A stretch of 64,000 nt of DNA, from NCBI GenBank assembly GCA_949840805.1, contig CATKXR010000020.1, forward strand, positions 1 to 64,000, given 5' to 3'. Made by a program: the position numbers and the translations under genes. Source of the stretch: an uncultured Lachnospiraceae bacterium (GTDB taxonomy: Bacteria; Bacillota; Clostridia; Lachnospirales; Lachnospiraceae). Shown here piece by piece: positions 9,700-17,802 of this stretch. Position 1 is the first letter of the stretch; each line of letters begins with the position of its first letter. The notes beneath the pieces were generated by a model. It was not told the DNA's origin. It did no database searches and saw only the letters and a program-made list of their open reading frames with translations.

Positions 9700-11013
9700 A
9701 TGAAACAATTAATGAATGACAAAGTAATCCCCAGGATTATGGCGTTTGTTAATACGAAGGGGATACAGGCAATTAAGGATGGTATGGTCTATTCCATGCC
9801 GCTTCTGATTGTAGGCTCCGTATTTCTGATCATTACCAACTTCCCTGTTCCGGCAGTTGTAAACATGCTGGAACAGACGGGCATAAAGGCCGTGTTGGAA
9901 CAGGCAAACGGAGCAACATTTAATATCAGTGCAATAATAGCCGTTCTTGGCATCGCCTATAACTATATCAAGCTAGATGGACAGGAACCGTTAAGCGGAG
10001 CAATCGTTGCACTTGGCGTCTTTATTATGATGACGCCGGCATCGATTGTAACAGAAGGCGGAGACGTAGTGGGAGGGATTATTGATAAAAGCTGGACAGC
10101 CGGAAAAGGCATGGTCGGCGCAATTATTGTAGGGCTGATTGTGGCTTATGTCTACTGCTGGTTTCTGAAAAGAAACATAAAAATCAAGATGCCGGCAGGC
10201 GTTCCTGACGGTGTATCCAATGCATTCTCGGCGCTGGTTCCCGGTGCTGTCATTGTAACCGGAGCAACCATCGTCCACGGAATCTTTTCCATGGGATTCC
10301 ACATGACGGCTATGGAAGGGATTTACAACGTGATTCAGACGCCTCTCCAGAGCATGACGGATTCTATTGGCGGAGCAGTCCTGATGTGTTTCCTGACCCC
10401 GTTTTTATGGTTCTTCGGCGTGCATGGTTCAACGATTGTCGGAGGAATTATGACTGGTATTCTTCAGGCAAACGGCCTGGAAAACCAGGCTTTGATTGAT
10501 AAGGGGATTGAGCTGACGGTCAAAAACGGAGGCCATATTGTTACCATGCAGTTTTTGGATCAGTTTATCAATACAACCGGTGCGGGAATTACCATTGGAC
10601 TTGTTATCTACATGTTCTTCCTCGCAAAATCAAAGCAGTTAAAAACACTGGGAAGGCTGGAGATGGTGCCTGCATTGTTTAATATTAACGAACCGATTTT
10701 GTTTGGCATTCCGATTGTAATGAATCCTATGCTGGCTTTTCCGTTTATCGCTATGCCGGTGATTGCCTGTGTGCTTCAGTATGCAGCCCTCTATACAGGA
10801 CTTTGCCCGCTTTATGGCGCTATCCAGGTTCCCTGGACATGTCCGCCGGTTATTTCGGGATTTTTAATCGGAGGATGGCGGACGGCGCTTTTACAGTTGA
10901 TTATCCTCAGCTTGTCGTTTCTTGTCTATCTTCCTTTTGTGAGAAGAGTCGATAAACTGAATCTGATTGAAGAAGCGAAAACAGAAAAAGAAGCACAGGA
11001 CGATGAATGGTAA
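9700..11013 (+). CDS. PTS cellobiose/lactose-type IIC permease
   Basis: A 437-residue integral membrane sugar channel of the EIIC-Lac family with about ten hydrophobic segments. The family motifs FWFFGVHGSTIVGG (LWFFGVHGS form) and LFNINEPILFGIPIVMNP (substrate site) are clear. It imports and phosphorylates the sugar with IIB and IIA encoded on either side. The exact sugar cannot be fixed; beta-glucosides such as cellobiose are most likely given the GH1 enzyme. The tail is short and acidic, with no fused IIA or IIB. Confidence 0.93.
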   Translation: MKQLMNDKVIPRIMAFVNTKGIQAIKDGMVYSMPLLIVGSVFLIITNFPVPAVVNMLEQTGIKAVLEQANGATFNISAIIAVLGIAYNYIKLDGQEPLSGAIVALGVFIMMTPASIVTEGGDVVGGIIDKSWTAGKGMVGAIIVGLIVAYVYCWFLKRNIKIKMPAGVPDGVSNAFSALVPGAVIVTGATIVHGIFSMGFHMTAMEGIYNVIQTPLQSMTDSIGGAVLMCFLTPFLWFFGVHGSTIVGGIMTGILQANGLENQALIDKGIELTVKNGGHIVTMQFLDQFINTTGAGITIGLVIYMFFLAKSKQLKTLGRLEMVPALFNINEPILFGIPIVMNPMLAFPFIAMPVIACVLQYAALYTGLCPLYGAIQVPWTCPPVISGFLIGGWRTALLQLIILSLSFLVYLPFVRRVDKLNLIEEAKTEKEAQDDEW

Positions 11014-11025
11014 AAGGAGGACAAA

Positions 11026-11340
11026 ATGACCACAGAATTTGAAACGGCATGTTTTGGAATTATTACTTATGTGGGAACGGCAAGATCGTGTTTTATCAAT
11101 GCCGTACAGTGTGCGAAAAAGGGCGATTTTCAAGGAGCGGAAGAACAGATCAGGCAGGGCGATGAAGCCTATACCCAGGGACACCATATTCATGCGGATC
11201 TTTTGACGCTGGATGCAAACGGAAAACTGGAGGAATCCGGCCTCATCCTGATGCATGCGGAAGACCAGTTGATGAGCGCAGAGACCTTCCGGGTTTTGGC
11301 AGTGGAATTTATTGAAGTCTATAAAAAAATGATGCTTTAA
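11026..11340 (+). CDS. PTS lactose/cellobiose-type IIA component
   Basis: A 104-residue helical IIA protein. The active-site His is about residue 77 in LMHAEDQLM, with the structural Asp three positions later, as in the LacA/ChbA family. It lies 12 bp after the IIC gene with AAAGGAGG upstream and completes the transporter. A strong terminator follows. Confidence 0.92.
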   Translation: MTTEFETACFGIITYVGTARSCFINAVQCAKKGDFQGAEEQIRQGDEAYTQGHHIHADLLTLDANGKLEESGLILMHAEDQLMSAETFRVLAVEFIEVYKKMML

Positions 11341-11387
11341 CCCTGATATATTTCTCCCGAAGATTTGACGCAATAAAAACGAGATAT

Positions 11388-11427
11388 AATCCCAGAAACA
11401 TGAAAAATATTGTTTCTGGGATTTTTT
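11388..11427 (+). terminator. Terminator of the PTS operon
   Basis: A perfect 12-bp stem (AATCCCAGAAAC with GTTTCTGGGATT) running into a T-tract. Confidence 0.85.
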
Positions 11428-11568
11428 GCCGGGTAATTTTAACACTTTCGTTGACATATGAGACGGAATTAATTATTATTATCGTAAATCCGGGGATATT
11501 TGCCCTGTCGGTTCTTAAGTATCCTTCGGATGAAAGGACATTCTTTTATAAGGCAAAGGAACAAAACT

Positions 11569-12453
11569 ATGAAAATACAGGATAAGTTCAAAGGTATGCT
11601 GCTTACCCTTGCGGGAGGGACTTTATGGGGATTTTCCGGAACCTGCGGTCAGTATCTCATGCAGCAAAAAGGAGTCACATCAGACTGGCTGGTTCCCTTT
11701 CGGCTGACCATAGCCGGTTTTTTATTGCTCCTGCTTTGTTTTTTTAAGCAGCGGGAGAAAGTATTCGCCGTGTGGAAAAACAGGAGGGACGCAGGAGCAA
11801 TTCTTTGTTTCGGGATTCTGGGCATGTCCATGTGCCAGTATACTTATTTTACTGCCATCGGGGCTTCCAACGCAGGGACAGCCACGGTGCTCCAGTACAT
11901 AGGCCCGGTGATTATTGTGGTCTATGTGTCCTTAAGAACTTTAAAAATGCCGGGGATTAAGGAGATCTGCGCCATTGTCCTTGCGGTTCTGGGGACTTTT
12001 TTCCTCGCCACCCACGGAAACCCGGACAGTATGGTGCTGTCAGAAGAAGCTTTGATGTGGGGGCTGGCTTCCGCCGTGGCACTGGCTGTATACACGGTCC
12101 AGCCGGGACGGCTTCTGGCCTCCTACGGTTCTCTTCCGGTGACGGGCTGGGGAATGCTGATCGGCGGCGTGATGCTGATGGCTCTGTTCTGTCCATGGAG
12201 GATTCCGGTGGAAATGGACGCCCAGGTAATAGGGGGGATGGCGGCAGTGATCATTCTGGGAACCATCGTTGCTTTTTCCTGTTATCTGGAGGGAATCCGC
12301 CTGGTGGGACCAAAGAAGGGAAGCCTTTATGCCTCTGTGGAGCCGGTATCGGCCACGGTGTTCTCTGTCCTGTGGATGCATGCGGCTTTCGGGACCTGGG
12401 ATCTTATGGGATTTGCCTGCATTTTTGCGACCATTCTCCTGCTGTCTCTGTGA
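11569..12453 (+). CDS. EamA/DMT superfamily transporter
   Basis: A 294-residue membrane protein of two repeated EamA halves, about ten membrane helices. Visible marks are the N-terminal GTLWGFSGTCGQYL motif and the second-half GTIVAFSCYLEGIRLVGP and EPVSATVF motifs. Members export amino acids, metabolites or drugs; the substrate here is unknown. The start at 11569 has AAAGGA upstream; the open frame extends back to 11500 without support. It is monocistronic, between the PTS terminator and its own terminator. Confidence 0.88.
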   Translation: MKIQDKFKGMLLTLAGGTLWGFSGTCGQYLMQQKGVTSDWLVPFRLTIAGFLLLLLCFFKQREKVFAVWKNRRDAGAILCFGILGMSMCQYTYFTAIGASNAGTATVLQYIGPVIIVVYVSLRTLKMPGIKEICAIVLAVLGTFFLATHGNPDSMVLSEEALMWGLASAVALAVYTVQPGRLLASYGSLPVTGWGMLIGGVMLMALFCPWRIPVEMDAQVIGGMAAVIILGTIVAFSCYLEGIRLVGPKKGSLYASVEPVSATVFSVLWMHAAFGTWDLMGFACIFATILLLSL

Positions 12454-12458
12454 TTATG

Positions 12459-12484
12459 CAGATATACAACATATCTGGTTTTTT
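12459..12484 (+). terminator. Terminator after the EamA transporter
   Basis: A 7-bp stem (CAGATAT with ATATCTG) followed by GTTTTTT. Confidence 0.65.
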
Positions 12485-12580
12485 GCAACTGATCTTATAG
12501 GATGGAATGCTCTTTTCATCTTGTCGATTTTTTGATATAGTGCTAAAATCGTAGATACAGCAGGCTGCGTTATTGAAAAA

Positions 12581-12631
12581 ATCTTTAACTTAACAATATT
12601 GACCTATGGATAGTACTGCACGATAATGCAT
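12581..12631 (+). repeat. Dispersed 51-bp promoter-bearing repeat, copy B
   Basis: 46 of 51 bases match copy A at 138-188. It carries TTGACC (12599-12604), a 17-base spacer and GATAAT (12622-12627), a better -10 than copy A. It points at the FRG-AIPR pair and is the most likely promoter for it, about 100 bp before the FRG start. Confidence 0.65.
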
Positions 12632-12732
12632 AAAAAGCATACTTCCAGGAAGAGAAGATGGCAGAAGGAGATTATAAAAGATTATAAAGTAGAGATTAAA
12701 AGGAGAGGAGCAGACAGGAAAGAGAGATCAAC

Positions 12733-13893
12733 ATGACAAAGATAAAAAGCAATATTCTTCCCAAGGAGAATCATATAGAGAAAAATATAAAGAATAATAT
12801 TCAGAATGTTTCTCAATATATAGAACGGGTAAATGAATATATCAAGGTTCAGCGGCACAGGGACAGCACCGTAGTCTATCGGGGAGAACCGGATATTTAT
12901 TCCAGCCCATGCCGTCCCAACATTTTCCGGAAAGGCGTGATGAATGGAAACGAATTCTTCGAGAAGAGCTTGTTCGATGCCATGAGGCAGAATCGGCTGA
13001 CAGGTGAACTTCGATATCTGGATAATGCCATTGATGCCCAGCATGGGGAATTTCCAAGCCGTCTTCTTGACGTATCTTATAATTGTCTGACCGCGCTGTA
13101 TTTCGCAGTGACTCCCTACTATCATAACGATGAAAAATCTATGGATGACCGGGACGGAATGGTATACCTGTTTTTTATGGATGAGATCTTCAGTCCCAGC
13201 GCCAAGAATACCAATGACAATTATGACGCCATCATTAACCGGGATCAGAAATGGCTGCAAAGTAACATTCTGTTTGAGAAGAACCATAAATTTATTGACC
13301 ACACGAAACTGAATAACAGGATCATTGCCCAGCAGGGAGCTTTTATTTTATTTCAGGGGGATGAACCGGAGAACCTGCCGGAATACATCAGCTATGGAAT
13401 CCGGATTCCGGGAAAGGCAAAGGCGGGAATACGAAAAGAATTGAGGCAGCTTTTTGGCATTCATACGGGGAGCATTTATCCGGAGATCATCAATCTGGTG
13501 GATGAGTTAAGCAGCAAGAGCAGAAAGCTCAATACGGAGGACTTTAGCTGCAGAAATGAACTGGAATATGCTTTGCGGCAGTTTGACAAGGAGATGGATT
13601 ATTATTTTGACTATATTATCGGGAGAAGGGCGGATGGGGAAGAGAATGTGACCCGGATTCTCATGCATATTGAGCATGTCATCGACAGCTACCGGAAGGG
13701 CCTTCTGGAATTTGCGGGAAATTATTATCAGTGGAAAAGAGAGGACCAGACAGAGGAGCCATATGGCTTAAAAGAGACGGAATTGGATGAGATAATCGGT
13801 AAATATAACAAGGCGGTCCGGGAATTTGCGGAGAATATAGGACGGTACGGTATGACGGAATTCTCAAGTGATAAGCTGCAGATTACGAAGTGA
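12733..13893 (+). CDS. FRG domain-containing protein
   Basis: A 386-residue soluble protein with an N-terminal FRG domain, named for its conserved Phe-Arg-Gly-like motif. The motif VVYRGEPDIYSSPCRP is near residue 45 and the family hallmark HGEFPSRLLDVSYNCLTALYFA near 103-124. The biochemical activity of FRG is not firmly established; the domain is frequent in accessory and defence-linked genes. The rest (about 210-386) is charged and helical with no recognised domain. It is followed closely, possibly with a 4-base overlap, by an AIPR-family gene, so the two form one unit. AGGAAAGAGAG precedes the start. Confidence 0.82.
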   Translation: MTKIKSNILPKENHIEKNIKNNIQNVSQYIERVNEYIKVQRHRDSTVVYRGEPDIYSSPCRPNIFRKGVMNGNEFFEKSLFDAMRQNRLTGELRYLDNAIDAQHGEFPSRLLDVSYNCLTALYFAVTPYYHNDEKSMDDRDGMVYLFFMDEIFSPSAKNTNDNYDAIINRDQKWLQSNILFEKNHKFIDHTKLNNRIIAQQGAFILFQGDEPENLPEYISYGIRIPGKAKAGIRKELRQLFGIHTGSIYPEIINLVDELSSKSRKLNTEDFSCRNELEYALRQFDKEMDYYFDYIIGRRADGEENVTRILMHIEHVIDSYRKGLLEFAGNYYQWKREDQTEEPYGLKETELDEIIGKYNKAVREFAENIGRYGMTEFSSDKLQITK

Positions 13894-13934
13894 CAGGTAA
13901 AAAATGTTCCAAAGAAAAGGAGGAGCCGCGGGTT

Positions 13935-16313
13935 ATGGGGGCAATATCTCAAAAGATGAAGAGAAGCGTGGATTTTGAAAAGTATATCAATAAAATTTTA
14001 AGGAATCAGGAGATGGACTGTGATGAGGACTGGCGGAACAACAAGGATTCTTTGAATGAACTGCAGGAATTAGCCTGCAGGGAGGAAAATTATGTAACAG
14101 ATTCCACAATATTAAAGATCGAGAGCGCAAAAAAGCTGATTGTCGCGGTGTTTTGGCAGGACCCGGATGAGTTCCTCAAAACTGTCACGAAGAGGATAGA
14201 AAAATTACTTGAGAAAGAGAAGACAGCAGGAATTGAGCTGGTATTTTTTGTCAGGGATATGAAGAGCAGAATCAGCCTGGAGAGGACATTTGATACAAAG
14301 ACTTTGGCAAGCCTGAGAAAGATGGCCAGGAAAAGCTCAGGAAATAAATTACTTGGGATTCACTGCACCTATATTCTTCAGAAAGAATATGACATTCAGG
14401 AGGTAAAACTGACGGGGCTGAGACGGTATGAGATGATACAGATGCCGCCCATTGAAGGGAAGATTAATCAGGAAAGACTTGAAACATGTGAGGATTCCGA
14501 GGGAAAGATCAATGCTTTGGTCTTTACGGTGGATCTTTACCAGCTTGTGAAGCTGTATAATCTGATTGGGGACACGCTTTTTAAAAATAATGTACGGTTT
14601 GGAATCAATGAGACTCTGGGAGTGGATTATTCGATTCAGAGAACCCTGGAGATGGAACCGAATCTTTTCTGGTTTAAGAATAATGGGGTTACAATTCTGG
14701 TGGAAGACCCTGATTTTATGCCAAGAAATGTGGAAGAATTAAAGCTTGGTGATATCGGGCCGGATAAGGATCCGAATTTTTCCGTGGTAAATGGAGCGCA
14801 GACGATTACCACAGCGGCTAAGTATTTTTTCAACATGGAATATAACTGGCAGAACAGCCAGGAAGGATCAAAAGAAAAGTCTGATTATCTTAACAAGCTG
14901 AACAGTTCGAAACAGGCCCAGGTGATCCTGCGTATTATTCAGATTTCCGGAACAGGAAAGGCGGCGGCATCCGCCAATACGGCCAAGGACATCAGCGTGG
15001 CATTGAACCGGCAAAAGCCTATTAAGATGGAGGATATTGCATTTACGCTGTGGTTTGTAGAAAAACTGACAAGGTATCTGGCACACATCCATGAAGATAA
15101 TCCGGAAGCATTCCTGCTGGTACGTCGGGGAGAGGAAAGCAGTACAGGTGAGGAGATGGATCTGACAGAGTTTGCCAGGGCCAGGCTGGCCTGTATCGGC
15201 CGGCCGGGAGAGGCCAGAAGCCAGGGCGCCAAGGTTCTGCTGAAAATCAGGACGGAAGATGACGCAGAAGACACTTTTCAGCGAAAAGATATTTTTGTAC
15301 CAGAATGGACGGAAGCGGATGAGAATGAGGAAGCCAGTGTTTTTCAGCGCCATTACGGCGCCGTCTGGTTTGCCCATAAGGTTGCCGGAGAATATGAAAT
15401 ACAGAAAAAGAATGTGATAAAAGACACGGAGCATGATTTTTCTACGGTTATTAATAACGGCAAATGGTATTTTACGGCGATTTTGGTGCAGCTTCTCAAC
15501 GGATTAGCGGTTGATTGTGGGGTTAATGTTGAGGAATTCTATGATTTTTCTGATTTTACGACTTCATTTTTGTCTGTACAACAGAAGATTCCGGAGGCCA
15601 TGAAATATTTTGCCGGAATCGTACTGGCTTATAAAAAAGAGAAAGAAAAGTATGGGGAACTCAATTCTAATCTGTTTAAGAAGGAGGAACTCTACATAGA
15701 TCTGATAAAGGAGATCAAACATGTTTTTGCATCGGATCCGGTCGGAAGGAAAGAGAACGGGATAGAGAGAGAGGCGTGGGGACTGGCGGATTTGTTTTCT
15801 GTGACGGACAGGATGATGGCAGGGGTTGAGGCCGCCGCGGCAACGGAAGAAACACAGACAGCGTGGAAAGAAACTGCTGTGGGGAGATCAGAAGCTGTTG
15901 ATGCTGAGCCGGAGCTGATTTATACAGATTCGGCGGGCAAAAAGAAAAAATCGGAGGCGGCTAAGATGAGTCATCTGGTCTTAAGGGGAGTGGTATATAC
16001 CTGTAAGACACTTGCCCAGGCTCAGGAGAAAACGGTGGGCTATATATTGGAGAATTATCATATTACAGAAGAGCAGTTACAAGGCTGTTCTGATTGGATT
16101 ACCAGTAAGAGAGAAAAGGGTGAGTCAAAGGAAAAGTATTTCCGCATCGCGAAACAGATCAAAGTGAATGGAAAAGACTATTGGGTCGGGACCTCAAGCA
16201 ACCAGGGGACGAAGTACAGCCAGGTAAGGGCGCTCTGCGAAGCAGCCCATGTTGGAAAAAATGAGATTTTCTGGTATATGGAAGCTCAGGAGAATCCTGT
16301 ATTTTCCTGGTAA
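13935..16313 (+). CDS. AIPR family protein (abortive-infection phage-resistance type)
   Basis: A 792-residue soluble protein. The AIPR core is clear: NALVFTVDLYQLVKLYNLIG near 200, LFKNNVRFGINETLGV, EPNLFWFKNNGVTIL near 240-255, and SVVNGAQTITTAAKYF near 283-298. A lysine-rich C-terminal part (about 675-792, ending in a Trp/Tyr-rich segment) is joined by an acidic, low-complexity linker. AIPR proteins were named for links to abortive phage resistance, but their mechanism is not settled. The ATG at 13935 is preferred because AAAAGGAGG precedes it. A GTG at 13890 would overlap the FRG stop by four bases and add 15 residues. With the FRG gene it forms a probable two-gene defence cassette. Confidence 0.82.
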   Translation: MGAISQKMKRSVDFEKYINKILRNQEMDCDEDWRNNKDSLNELQELACREENYVTDSTILKIESAKKLIVAVFWQDPDEFLKTVTKRIEKLLEKEKTAGIELVFFVRDMKSRISLERTFDTKTLASLRKMARKSSGNKLLGIHCTYILQKEYDIQEVKLTGLRRYEMIQMPPIEGKINQERLETCEDSEGKINALVFTVDLYQLVKLYNLIGDTLFKNNVRFGINETLGVDYSIQRTLEMEPNLFWFKNNGVTILVEDPDFMPRNVEELKLGDIGPDKDPNFSVVNGAQTITTAAKYFFNMEYNWQNSQEGSKEKSDYLNKLNSSKQAQVILRIIQISGTGKAAASANTAKDISVALNRQKPIKMEDIAFTLWFVEKLTRYLAHIHEDNPEAFLLVRRGEESSTGEEMDLTEFARARLACIGRPGEARSQGAKVLLKIRTEDDAEDTFQRKDIFVPEWTEADENEEASVFQRHYGAVWFAHKVAGEYEIQKKNVIKDTEHDFSTVINNGKWYFTAILVQLLNGLAVDCGVNVEEFYDFSDFTTSFLSVQQKIPEAMKYFAGIVLAYKKEKEKYGELNSNLFKKEELYIDLIKEIKHVFASDPVGRKENGIEREAWGLADLFSVTDRMMAGVEAAAATEETQTAWKETAVGRSEAVDAEPELIYTDSAGKKKKSEAAKMSHLVLRGVVYTCKTLAQAQEKTVGYILENYHITEEQLQGCSDWITSKREKGESKEKYFRIAKQIKVNGKDYWVGTSSNQGTKYSQVRALCEAAHVGKNEIFWYMEAQENPVFSW

Positions 16314-16347
16314 GAATGTATTCCAGCCAGTTTTTAATCAAATTTCA

Positions 16348-16391
16348 AAAATCCTCCCGGGAAGCCAGACGGATATTCCCGGGAGGATTTT
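16348..16391. terminator. Bidirectional terminator between AIPR and DUF386 genes
   Basis: A perfect 16-bp stem (16348-16363 with 16376-16391), A-rich on the left and T-rich on the right, between two convergent genes. It can stop transcription from both sides. Confidence 0.85.
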
Positions 16392-16412
16392 ATGAGCAGG
16401 TACAGGGATTAT

Positions 16413-16925
16413 TTAAGCAATGTCAGGCCCGCAGGCGTCTATCGGCACCTTGACCACGATTTTCCGGATCGGCGCTGCCACATCTCCTGCCTGAATGGCC
16501 GGGATATGGACATCCCATGGGAAATAGATGGCATAGGTTCCCACCGTCATCTCGATGGTTCCCTCCGGGGCGGAAGGGTTGTTGTGGTAAAACAGGATAT
16601 CCCGGGGAGTATCTAAAAGATCCTCGTCCACCTGATTGCTGCCGTCATCGCTGTAATATCCGGCCCGCTCCGGCCCTCCGGCGGCTAAAAACTGCACGTC
16701 AATATTCTTTCGATGGATCTCCGGCCGCAGGGAGTCTCTCGGAGCGGTGGTAAGGTCCAGGACCTGAAGGATCATGGGAACCCCGTCTAATTCTATATCA
16801 AATTTTCCGGGTTCATGGGAGGCAAGATCCGTGTCTTTTAAAAAACGGATAGCGCTTTTTAAAGCTTTAGGAAGCATGGCGATCTGTTGGTCAAACATGG
16901 CGTTGTGTATGTTCCCGTAATACAT
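16413..16925 (-). CDS. YhcH/YjgK/YiaL (DUF386) family protein, first copy
   Basis: A 170-residue cupin-like sugar-metabolism accessory protein. Family metal-site motifs are present: EIHRKNIDVQF and FPWDVHIPAI. Members sit in sialic-acid or other sugar catabolic loci and are suspected to open or isomerise sugars; no sugar operon adjoins it here. AAAGGAGG precedes the ATG. A second, quite different DUF386 protein is encoded divergently at 17350. Confidence 0.88.
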   Translation of the reverse strand: MYYGNIHNAMFDQQIAMLPKALKSAIRFLKDTDLASHEPGKFDIELDGVPMILQVLDLTTAPRDSLRPEIHRKNIDVQFLAAGGPERAGYYSDDGSNQVDEDLLDTPRDILFYHNNPSAPEGTIEMTVGTYAIYFPWDVHIPAIQAGDVAAPIRKIVVKVPIDACGPDIA

Positions 16926-16999
16926 GAGTGTCCTCCTTTGGGGCGTTTTCTTTTATCTTAACATGGTTTGTGCAAAAAGCAAAGAGAAAAGGAAGAAGA

Positions 17000-17121
17000 T
17001 TATTCCGATTTCGGAATAATGTCGATCTCTTATTTTTCCACCGTGAATTGCGATGCCTGGTTGCCATTGACCTGAAGATTGATGATTATAAACCGGAATA
17101 TCTGGGTAAAATGGAATTCCA
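17000..17121 (+). pseudogene. Relic of a YhcG/DUF1016-type PDDEXK nuclease gene
   Basis: In the plus frame containing 17041, the translation VDLLFFHRELRCLVAIDLKI then DDYKPEYLGKMEF matches the catalytic PDDEXK-like core of the YhcG family (D-LFYHR-L-C-V-ELK pattern). The homology stops abruptly after about 40 residues, with no start, no N-terminal domain and no C-terminus. It occupies the 424-bp gap between the divergent DUF386 genes. The rest of that gap (17122-17349) shows no gene. Confidence 0.65.
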
Positions 17122-17349
17122 TCATGATTTCCGAGTGCCGTACCAAGCTAATCAGTTTCATACCGGGTTTCCTGGGCGCTGTAGGACAGACTGATCAGAT
17201 TCACCAGCCGTTTGATTCCTTCATAAAACACAATAAAAAAACTATTGCAAACCGGGTTTTAATATGTTAATTTGTATATATAAAAAGAAACCAGGCAAAG
17301 CGAAGATGACAGACGGAATCGGATGCGCCGGGAAAAGGAGGAGATCGAG

Positions 17350-17802
17350 ATGTTTTTCTCAAATATCAAAATTGCAAAGAAGTACAATTATCTGGAGGAC
17401 AAGTTTTTAGCAGCCTATAAGTGGCTGGAGGAGACGGATATTGCGGCTCTTGCAGTGGGGAGCTATCCGATCATGGGGGACACGGTAGTGGCGAATATCC
17501 AGGAATATACGACCATCAAGCCGGAAGAAGGGTATTTTGAGACCCATGAGAAGTTTTTTGATATCCAGTATGTGGTGTCCGGAAAAGAGCAGTTTGGCTA
17601 TTGTAAGCGGGACGGGCTTGTAGTCCGGGAGAGAATAGAGGAGAATGACCTGATCTTTTATGAGGAGCCGGCTCTCAGCGGAACCGTGCTTTTGGAGGCT
17701 GGTGATTTGATCGTGGTGGCCCCGGAGGATGCCCATAAGCCAAGATGCCAGGCAGACGGACCGGAAGCCGTGAAGAAGGTTGTAATAAAGGTGGCCGTGT
17801 GA
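17350..17802 (+). CDS. YhcH/YjgK/YiaL (DUF386) family protein, second copy
   Basis: A 150-residue DUF386 protein with family motifs ETHEKFFDIQYVV and VVAPEDAHKP, the latter histidine and carboxylates forming the presumed metal site. The start at 17350 is set by AAAAGGAGGAG seven bases upstream; the open frame from 17323 is not supported. It is only distantly similar to the copy at 16413 and is transcribed away from it. The substrate is unknown, probably a sugar acid or amino-sugar intermediate. Confidence 0.88.
   Translation: MFFSNIKIAKKYNYLEDKFLAAYKWLEETDIAALAVGSYPIMGDTVVANIQEYTTIKPEEGYFETHEKFFDIQYVVSGKEQFGYCKRDGLVVRERIEENDLIFYEEPALSGTVLLEAGDLIVVAPEDAHKPRCQADGPEAVKKVVIKVAV

Follow-up and report, generated by a model that had tools for sequence, protein, structure and literature searches.

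In a 64,000-nucleotide stretch of DNA from an uncultured Lachnospiraceae bacterium (contig CATKXR010000020.1, positions 1 to 64,000; hereafter the window), an FRG-domain gene (12733..13893, 386 amino acids) is followed on the same, forward strand by an AIPR-family gene (13935..16313, 792 amino acids). We found that FRG and AIPR form a patchily distributed pair with constant partners, at some loci in the midst of DNA-modification systems. We give even chances to the reading that the pair is a two-component abortive-infection module, in which AIPR would be a DNA-modification sensor and switch, and FRG an effector of the ADP-ribosyltransferase (ART) superfamily. Both proteins exceed their Pfam cut-offs of 25 bits, FRG (PF08867) with 45.6 bits (E = 1.4e-11) and AIPR (PF10592) with 55.1 bits (E = 1.3e-14); hhalign also matched AIPR, over its core only, to 12 ordinary AIPRs (probability 99.9, E = 7e-37). 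This confirms the adjacency reported in an earlier note on this DNA, which had proposed the two genes as a two-component phage-defence system.

The pairing is fixed among close relatives. We derived two peptide patterns from a nine-row FRG alignment and scanned one genome per species across 84,980 species, a scan blind to relatives without either pattern. It recovered 26 close FRG relatives, mostly from Lachnospiraceae and other Clostridia, with one from Exiguobacterium (loci L054-L060 duplicate scan loci and L136 duplicates L061; each was counted once). An AIPR gene lies directly downstream of FRG in 26/26, and is broken in two of them. Within a draw of 299 genomes of the family, all nine FRG matches with E < 1e-70 likewise adjoin an AIPR gene, one of these broken; eight genomes, the source genome included, carry the pair, in nine copies. 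The source genome holds a second pair (L053, 9465-13134), with FRG 87% and AIPR 70% identical to the window's. The 12 weaker FRG matches and 17 other AIPR loci of the family draw and source genome had no partner within the 2.3-3.8 kb examined.

The distribution is patchy. Of 24 genus genomes, two have a close FRG copy and a third has only a distant FRG (E = 4.5e-7); in a draw across the phylum three of 398 genomes match FRG at E <= 1e-20: the source genome and two others, both also with an adjoining AIPR. The two questions that the earlier note had posed, whether the genes are neighbours elsewhere and whether the pair is a family-wide housekeeping locus, are thus answered in favor of a pair that combines conserved co-occurrence with patchiness. 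At the sensitivity of our searches, phages, plasmids and viral contigs yielded no close relative of the pair: FRG had three distant matches in phages, three in plasmids and none in viral contigs, AIPR had none in phages, four distant matches in plasmids and at least 13 in viral contigs, and FRG was absent from 13 viral AIPR loci among the matches listed. Mapping six genomes of the genus, in all of which the DUF386 gene downstream of the pair and its neighbors are conserved, did not reveal a clean empty site, the upstream phosphotransferase-system block lying on another contig in one genome (G302) and the EamA matches being distant (64-71%). In two related genomes (L066 and L069) the pair sits on opposite sides of the same LysR/chromate-transporter-like genes, named by eye, a sign of local mobility.

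Across 300 pairs of 25 loci, FRG and AIPR distances are correlated (r = 0.93), and in 300/300 comparisons conservation is higher in FRG than in AIPR, as expected for a conserved enzyme or effector with a diversifying sensor. The conserved FRG motifs are YRGE, AIDAQH, RLLDV and AQQG, and R50, H104, R110, D113, Q200-Q201 and E251 are invariant in 27 aligned rows including the window; the R50 entry of one row (L084) is an alignment accident, because its FRG truly lacks the YRGE segment. FRG also matches ten PADLOC models of PDC-S15, a single-gene candidate, at E <= 0.01 (best 5.9e-33); here, however, every close relative of FRG has an AIPR partner of its own. Candidates such as PDC-S15 are called uncharacterized in the relevant passage of PMC12482510. 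The section of Iyer et al. (2022; PMC9503650) on Frg places it in the ART superfamily and suggests NADase activity, and on this published classification we predict FRG to be an ART-superfamily effector. Our structure model of FRG is weak in the catalytic half and the fold search covered mainly residues 215-386: there was no Foldseek match at E <= 0.001, and the VIA matches were mainly to this helical C-terminal part, with no ART among those listed, which is uninformative. A profile search with FRG against PDB sequences gave only helical matches, probably by chance.

Two co-directional genes, always together in close relatives, and a partner that may be an NADase (as suggested in the Frg section of PMC9503650) also fit a toxin-antitoxin arrangement, in which AIPR holds an FRG toxin inactive and defense or maintenance results once AIPR disappears or phage DNA titrates it away. 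Loci with broken AIPR genes bear on this in both directions. At L084 (8777-10206), from a metagenome-assembled genome, AIPR is in short frames and FRG is damaged too, as the loss of YRGE attests, in keeping with such an arrangement; at L081 (1536-3163), in contrast, three short frames take the place of AIPR beside a full-length FRG with its motifs, hard to square with an essential antitoxin, although in this draft metagenome-assembled genome the split may be an assembly error. AIPR is moreover large and multi-domain for an antitoxin, and the 12 more distant FRG matches had no AIPR in the DNA examined. We consider a toxin-antitoxin pair unlikely.

The domains of AIPR, all encoded on the forward strand, point to a possible interaction with DNA. 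An N-terminal alpha/beta domain (residues 1-150; 13935..14384) resembles RNA polymerase subunit E of the RPB5 type. A portion of the core (residues 188-360; 14496..15014) weakly resembles the SspE, BrxU and ParB N-terminal folds, with SspE, a phosphorothioate-sensing effector, as the main match. The weak likeness to SspE and BrxU would suit modification-dependent (type IV-like) restriction, with AIPR cutting DNA and FRG as accessory, as would a nuclease-like motif, D-x-GID...QxK, present in 10 of 16 ordinary AIPRs. This motif, however, is missing from all 28 paired AIPRs, as judged by a regular expression of our own making that is not in the Pfam definition (of the six ordinary AIPRs that it misses, L020 and L027 seem on inspection to carry variants), and the N-terminal nuclease-like domain of the paired AIPRs appears to lack an active site. 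That FRG rather than AIPR is the more conserved partner also argues against AIPR as the nuclease of a restriction system, which we regard as improbable.

The C-terminus of AIPR (residues 682-790; 15978..16304) appears SeqA-like, and is a putative reader of DNA modification. Two methods, fold and profile, suggest the likeness: hhalign against SeqA gave E = 6.5e-6 and probability 85 for a single comparison, and SeqA scores 15.5 bits where the highest of 2000 shuffled scores was 9.0. SeqA binds hemimethylated GATC and regulates replication in enterobacteria, using N150 and N152 as base-contacting asparagines; to our knowledge it has no FRG or AIPR parts, and the bacteria in which it is known do not include the one studied here. 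In a 19-row alignment of the domain (leaving out L085 and L086, with unalignable C-termini, short AIPRs and L076) the N152 column is asparagine in 17 rows and the K156 column lysine in all 19, while N150 is replaced in 19/19, so that the two asparagines are never kept together. At the level of the whole protein, the AIPR model had no Foldseek match in the PDB at E <= 0.001, and the AIPR profile none among PDB sequences at E <= 1. At L076 (8521-15827) the AIPR frame stops at 650 amino acids and the SeqA-like portion is encoded in a frame of its own some 5 kb beyond; the gap holds a resolvase and other genes and looks like an insertion into the AIPR gene, and we counted this locus as without the domain.

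The surroundings of the pair link it, at some loci, to DNA modification. Among 30 pair loci (the 26 from the scan, the two source-genome copies, L139 and L140), at least seven adjoin defense or modification genes, a lower bound because hidden Markov model checks were made only on neighbors chosen by eye; at the other 23 these checks identified no defense neighbor. Phosphorothioation (Dnd/Dpt) clusters are clear at three: L082, with DptF, DptG and DptH upstream and a DndA-like gene, DndE (below cut-off) and DndD downstream; L079, with DptF, DptG and DptH upstream and a DndA-like gene downstream; and L085, with DndC, DndD, DndE and a DndA-like gene directly upstream. A fourth (L083) is Dnd-like, with DndD-like, PAPS-reductase-like and NifS/DndA-like genes upstream, all below curated cut-offs. 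At L140 the cassette runs C5 methyltransferase, AIPR, FRG, Sau3AI-family endonuclease; at L075 an Eco57I-type adenine methyltransferase lies 49 bases upstream of FRG, and at L080 an RloB gene 1.3 kb upstream. Since DndD is rare in the family (over cut-off in 15/299 genomes), chance adjacency of Dnd genes to the pair is unlikely. We know of no FRG-AIPR pair among the named Dnd, Dpt or Ssp parts. Two further kinds of neighbor recur or stand out: a small conserved gene (150-199 amino acids) just upstream of FRG at three loci (L068, 326-778; L070, 7388-7987; L071, 7536-7988), a possible accessory or regulator whose L070 copy has no convincing Pfam match, and, upstream of the second pair of the source genome, a 1358-residue protein (L053, 642-4718) with no match in Pfam (E <= 1e-8) or PADLOC (E <= 0.001).

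Judged by the ten neighbors scanned, the window's own copy does not lie in a defense island, a location that the earlier note proposed to look for. PADLOC found no defense gene among the ten window neighbors, with one weak histidine-kinase match, and this weighs against a role in defense; those neighbors that Pfam could name are metabolic or regulatory. There is no tRNA within the window, and the source genome (90% complete) has no DndD over cut-off; dnd genes adjoin the pair in some relatives. As to a methyl mark, GATC is not depleted in the window (355 seen against 243 expected from base composition), and D12-class methyltransferase matches on three source-genome contigs, none bearing either pair, are neutral. 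Metabolic neighbors, the SeqA-like domain and the lack of close relatives in the phages and plasmids searched would all suit a chromosomal regulator pair with no part in defense, in which AIPR might, for example, sequester hemimethylated DNA as SeqA does while its partner ADP-ribosylates. Against this, 22 of 24 genus and 291 of 299 family genomes have no close copy, and relatives sit inside Dnd and restriction-modification clusters. We think it the least probable of the explanations considered.

The SeqA-like domain and the modification neighbors divide the pair's tree. We built an FRG tree of 28 of the 30 loci, leaving L081 and L084, with their broken AIPR frames, out of it and of the alignment. 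On this tree the 19 SeqA-like AIPRs amount to a single change (branch support 75), against a mean of 7.8 changes after shuffling, with 0/500 shuffles as low as one. Among the nine loci without the domain are all four that are Dnd or Dnd-like, those with Sau3AI and RloB, and L076. With long branches and modest support, this is no more than suggestive. It would fit a sensor that draws its self/non-self cue from an adjoining modification system in some branches and has a built-in SeqA-like reader in the other; as a SeqA-like domain and a methyltransferase occur together at L075, the two cue sources are not strict alternatives.

Constant pairing, patchiness and the defense or modification neighbors of at least seven of the 30 loci favor the two-component defense system of the earlier note, phage protection itself being something we infer. 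In the abortive-infection module that we propose, the ParB/SspE-like core and SeqA-like C-terminus of AIPR would examine DNA, probably for the modification state of its bases or backbone. On meeting foreign or wrongly modified DNA, AIPR would activate FRG, which would then consume NAD+ or ADP-ribosylate a target, and the cell would stop. One set of branches would depend for the mark on a neighboring system, such as Dnd phosphorothioation or Sau3AI-type restriction-modification; in the window's branch the reader would be built into AIPR. The fuller version of this proposal we hold only tentatively, with less than even confidence: that this is an undescribed abortive-infection system whose modification-sensing AIPR, either partnered with phosphorothioation or restriction-modification or fused to its own SeqA-like reader and guarding the modification state alone, releases an NAD+-consuming FRG.

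Details of the locus itself differ in part from those first described. A four-base overlap of the two genes arises only in the longest AIPR frame, which starts at GTG 13890 and encodes 807 amino acids. It is probably not real, because ATG 13935 has a strong ribosome-binding-site-like AAAAGGAGGAG upstream (13915..13925, forward strand, found by inspection) and homologous AIPRs align from that ATG onward. Nor is there a fixed overlap elsewhere, since FRG-to-AIPR spacing, counted from longest-frame starts, varies from -104 to +320 across 27 of the 30 pairs (L081, L084 and L140 excluded). Of the two flanking terminators that had been described, the downstream one is strong: a hairpin (16348..16391, assigned to neither strand) between AIPR and the convergent DUF386 gene, with arms at 16348-16363 and 16376-16391 complementary at 16/16 positions and a folding energy of -31.5 kcal/mol (z = -5.2). 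No terminator-like site was found in the gap between the end of EamA (12453) and FRG.

The upstream repeat (12573..12632, forward strand), previously described as promoter-like and driving the pair, is a partial copy of a dispersed intergenic element. Scoring 40 of 61 candidates gave at least 36 genomic matches to it, and the window has a second copy at 130-189. The element is about 100 bases long and most copies start with AACGTGTCTGAAAACGTTCT; the copy at 12573 is without the left half that most others possess. Orientation and distance to genes vary among 30 copies inspected, and with dispersed copies in no constant relation to genes we discarded the repeat as the operon's promoter. Within it lies TTGACC-17-GATAAT, which at 10/12 ties for the best promoter-like score in the region, but such sites occur there at chance frequency (11 observed, 10.7 expected), leaving a promoter in the repeat possible and unproven. 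Rfam had no match in 10900-17400 or at four other repeat-bearing loci. Five contigs start about 120-250 bases ahead of a repeat copy, as if adjoining longer repeats, and a 48-base stretch (17175-17222) that recurs in two genus genomes (G301 and G318), away from the flanking genes, is probably another dispersed repeat.

Neither the AIPR nor the FRG family is new, and modification-coupled abortive infection is a known concept as well. The window's AIPR shares the Pfam core with AIPR/AbiU and matches the AbiU PADLOC model (3.1e-9) only over residues 201-397 of the 807-residue open reading frame; it differs in lacking the nuclease-like motif, in its extra SeqA-like C-terminal domain and in its constant FRG partner. 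MZA also contains an AIPR, MzaE, which the window's protein matches weakly over about 180 residues, scoring 23.8 bits where the equivalog cut-off is 1050, and PADLOC found no Mza gene among the ten window neighbors. Makarova et al. (2012; PMC3506569), in the passages concerned with AIPR, describe AbiU1/AIPR as often associated with restriction-modification and assign the N-terminal domain of DndB to AIPR, and the part of PMC5608340 on a Prevotella type II restriction-modification operon includes an AIPR gene in it. To the published link between AIPR and restriction-modification, our analysis adds the pairing with FRG and the Dnd surroundings of that pairing. Our literature search, whose coverage excludes preprints and most subscription papers and is no proof of novelty, found no description of the FRG-AIPR pair, in line with the suggestion that the exact pairing may be undescribed.

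AIPR and FRG are both poorly understood candidate defense families, and their pairing connects them in a concrete way that can be tested. It combines a SeqA-like sensor with an effector of predicted NAD+ chemistry, and has natural versions in phosphorothioation and Sau3AI-type clusters. If our proposal is right, the activity of AIPR would be directly testable, and a single sensor scaffold could swap its source of information on self and non-self.

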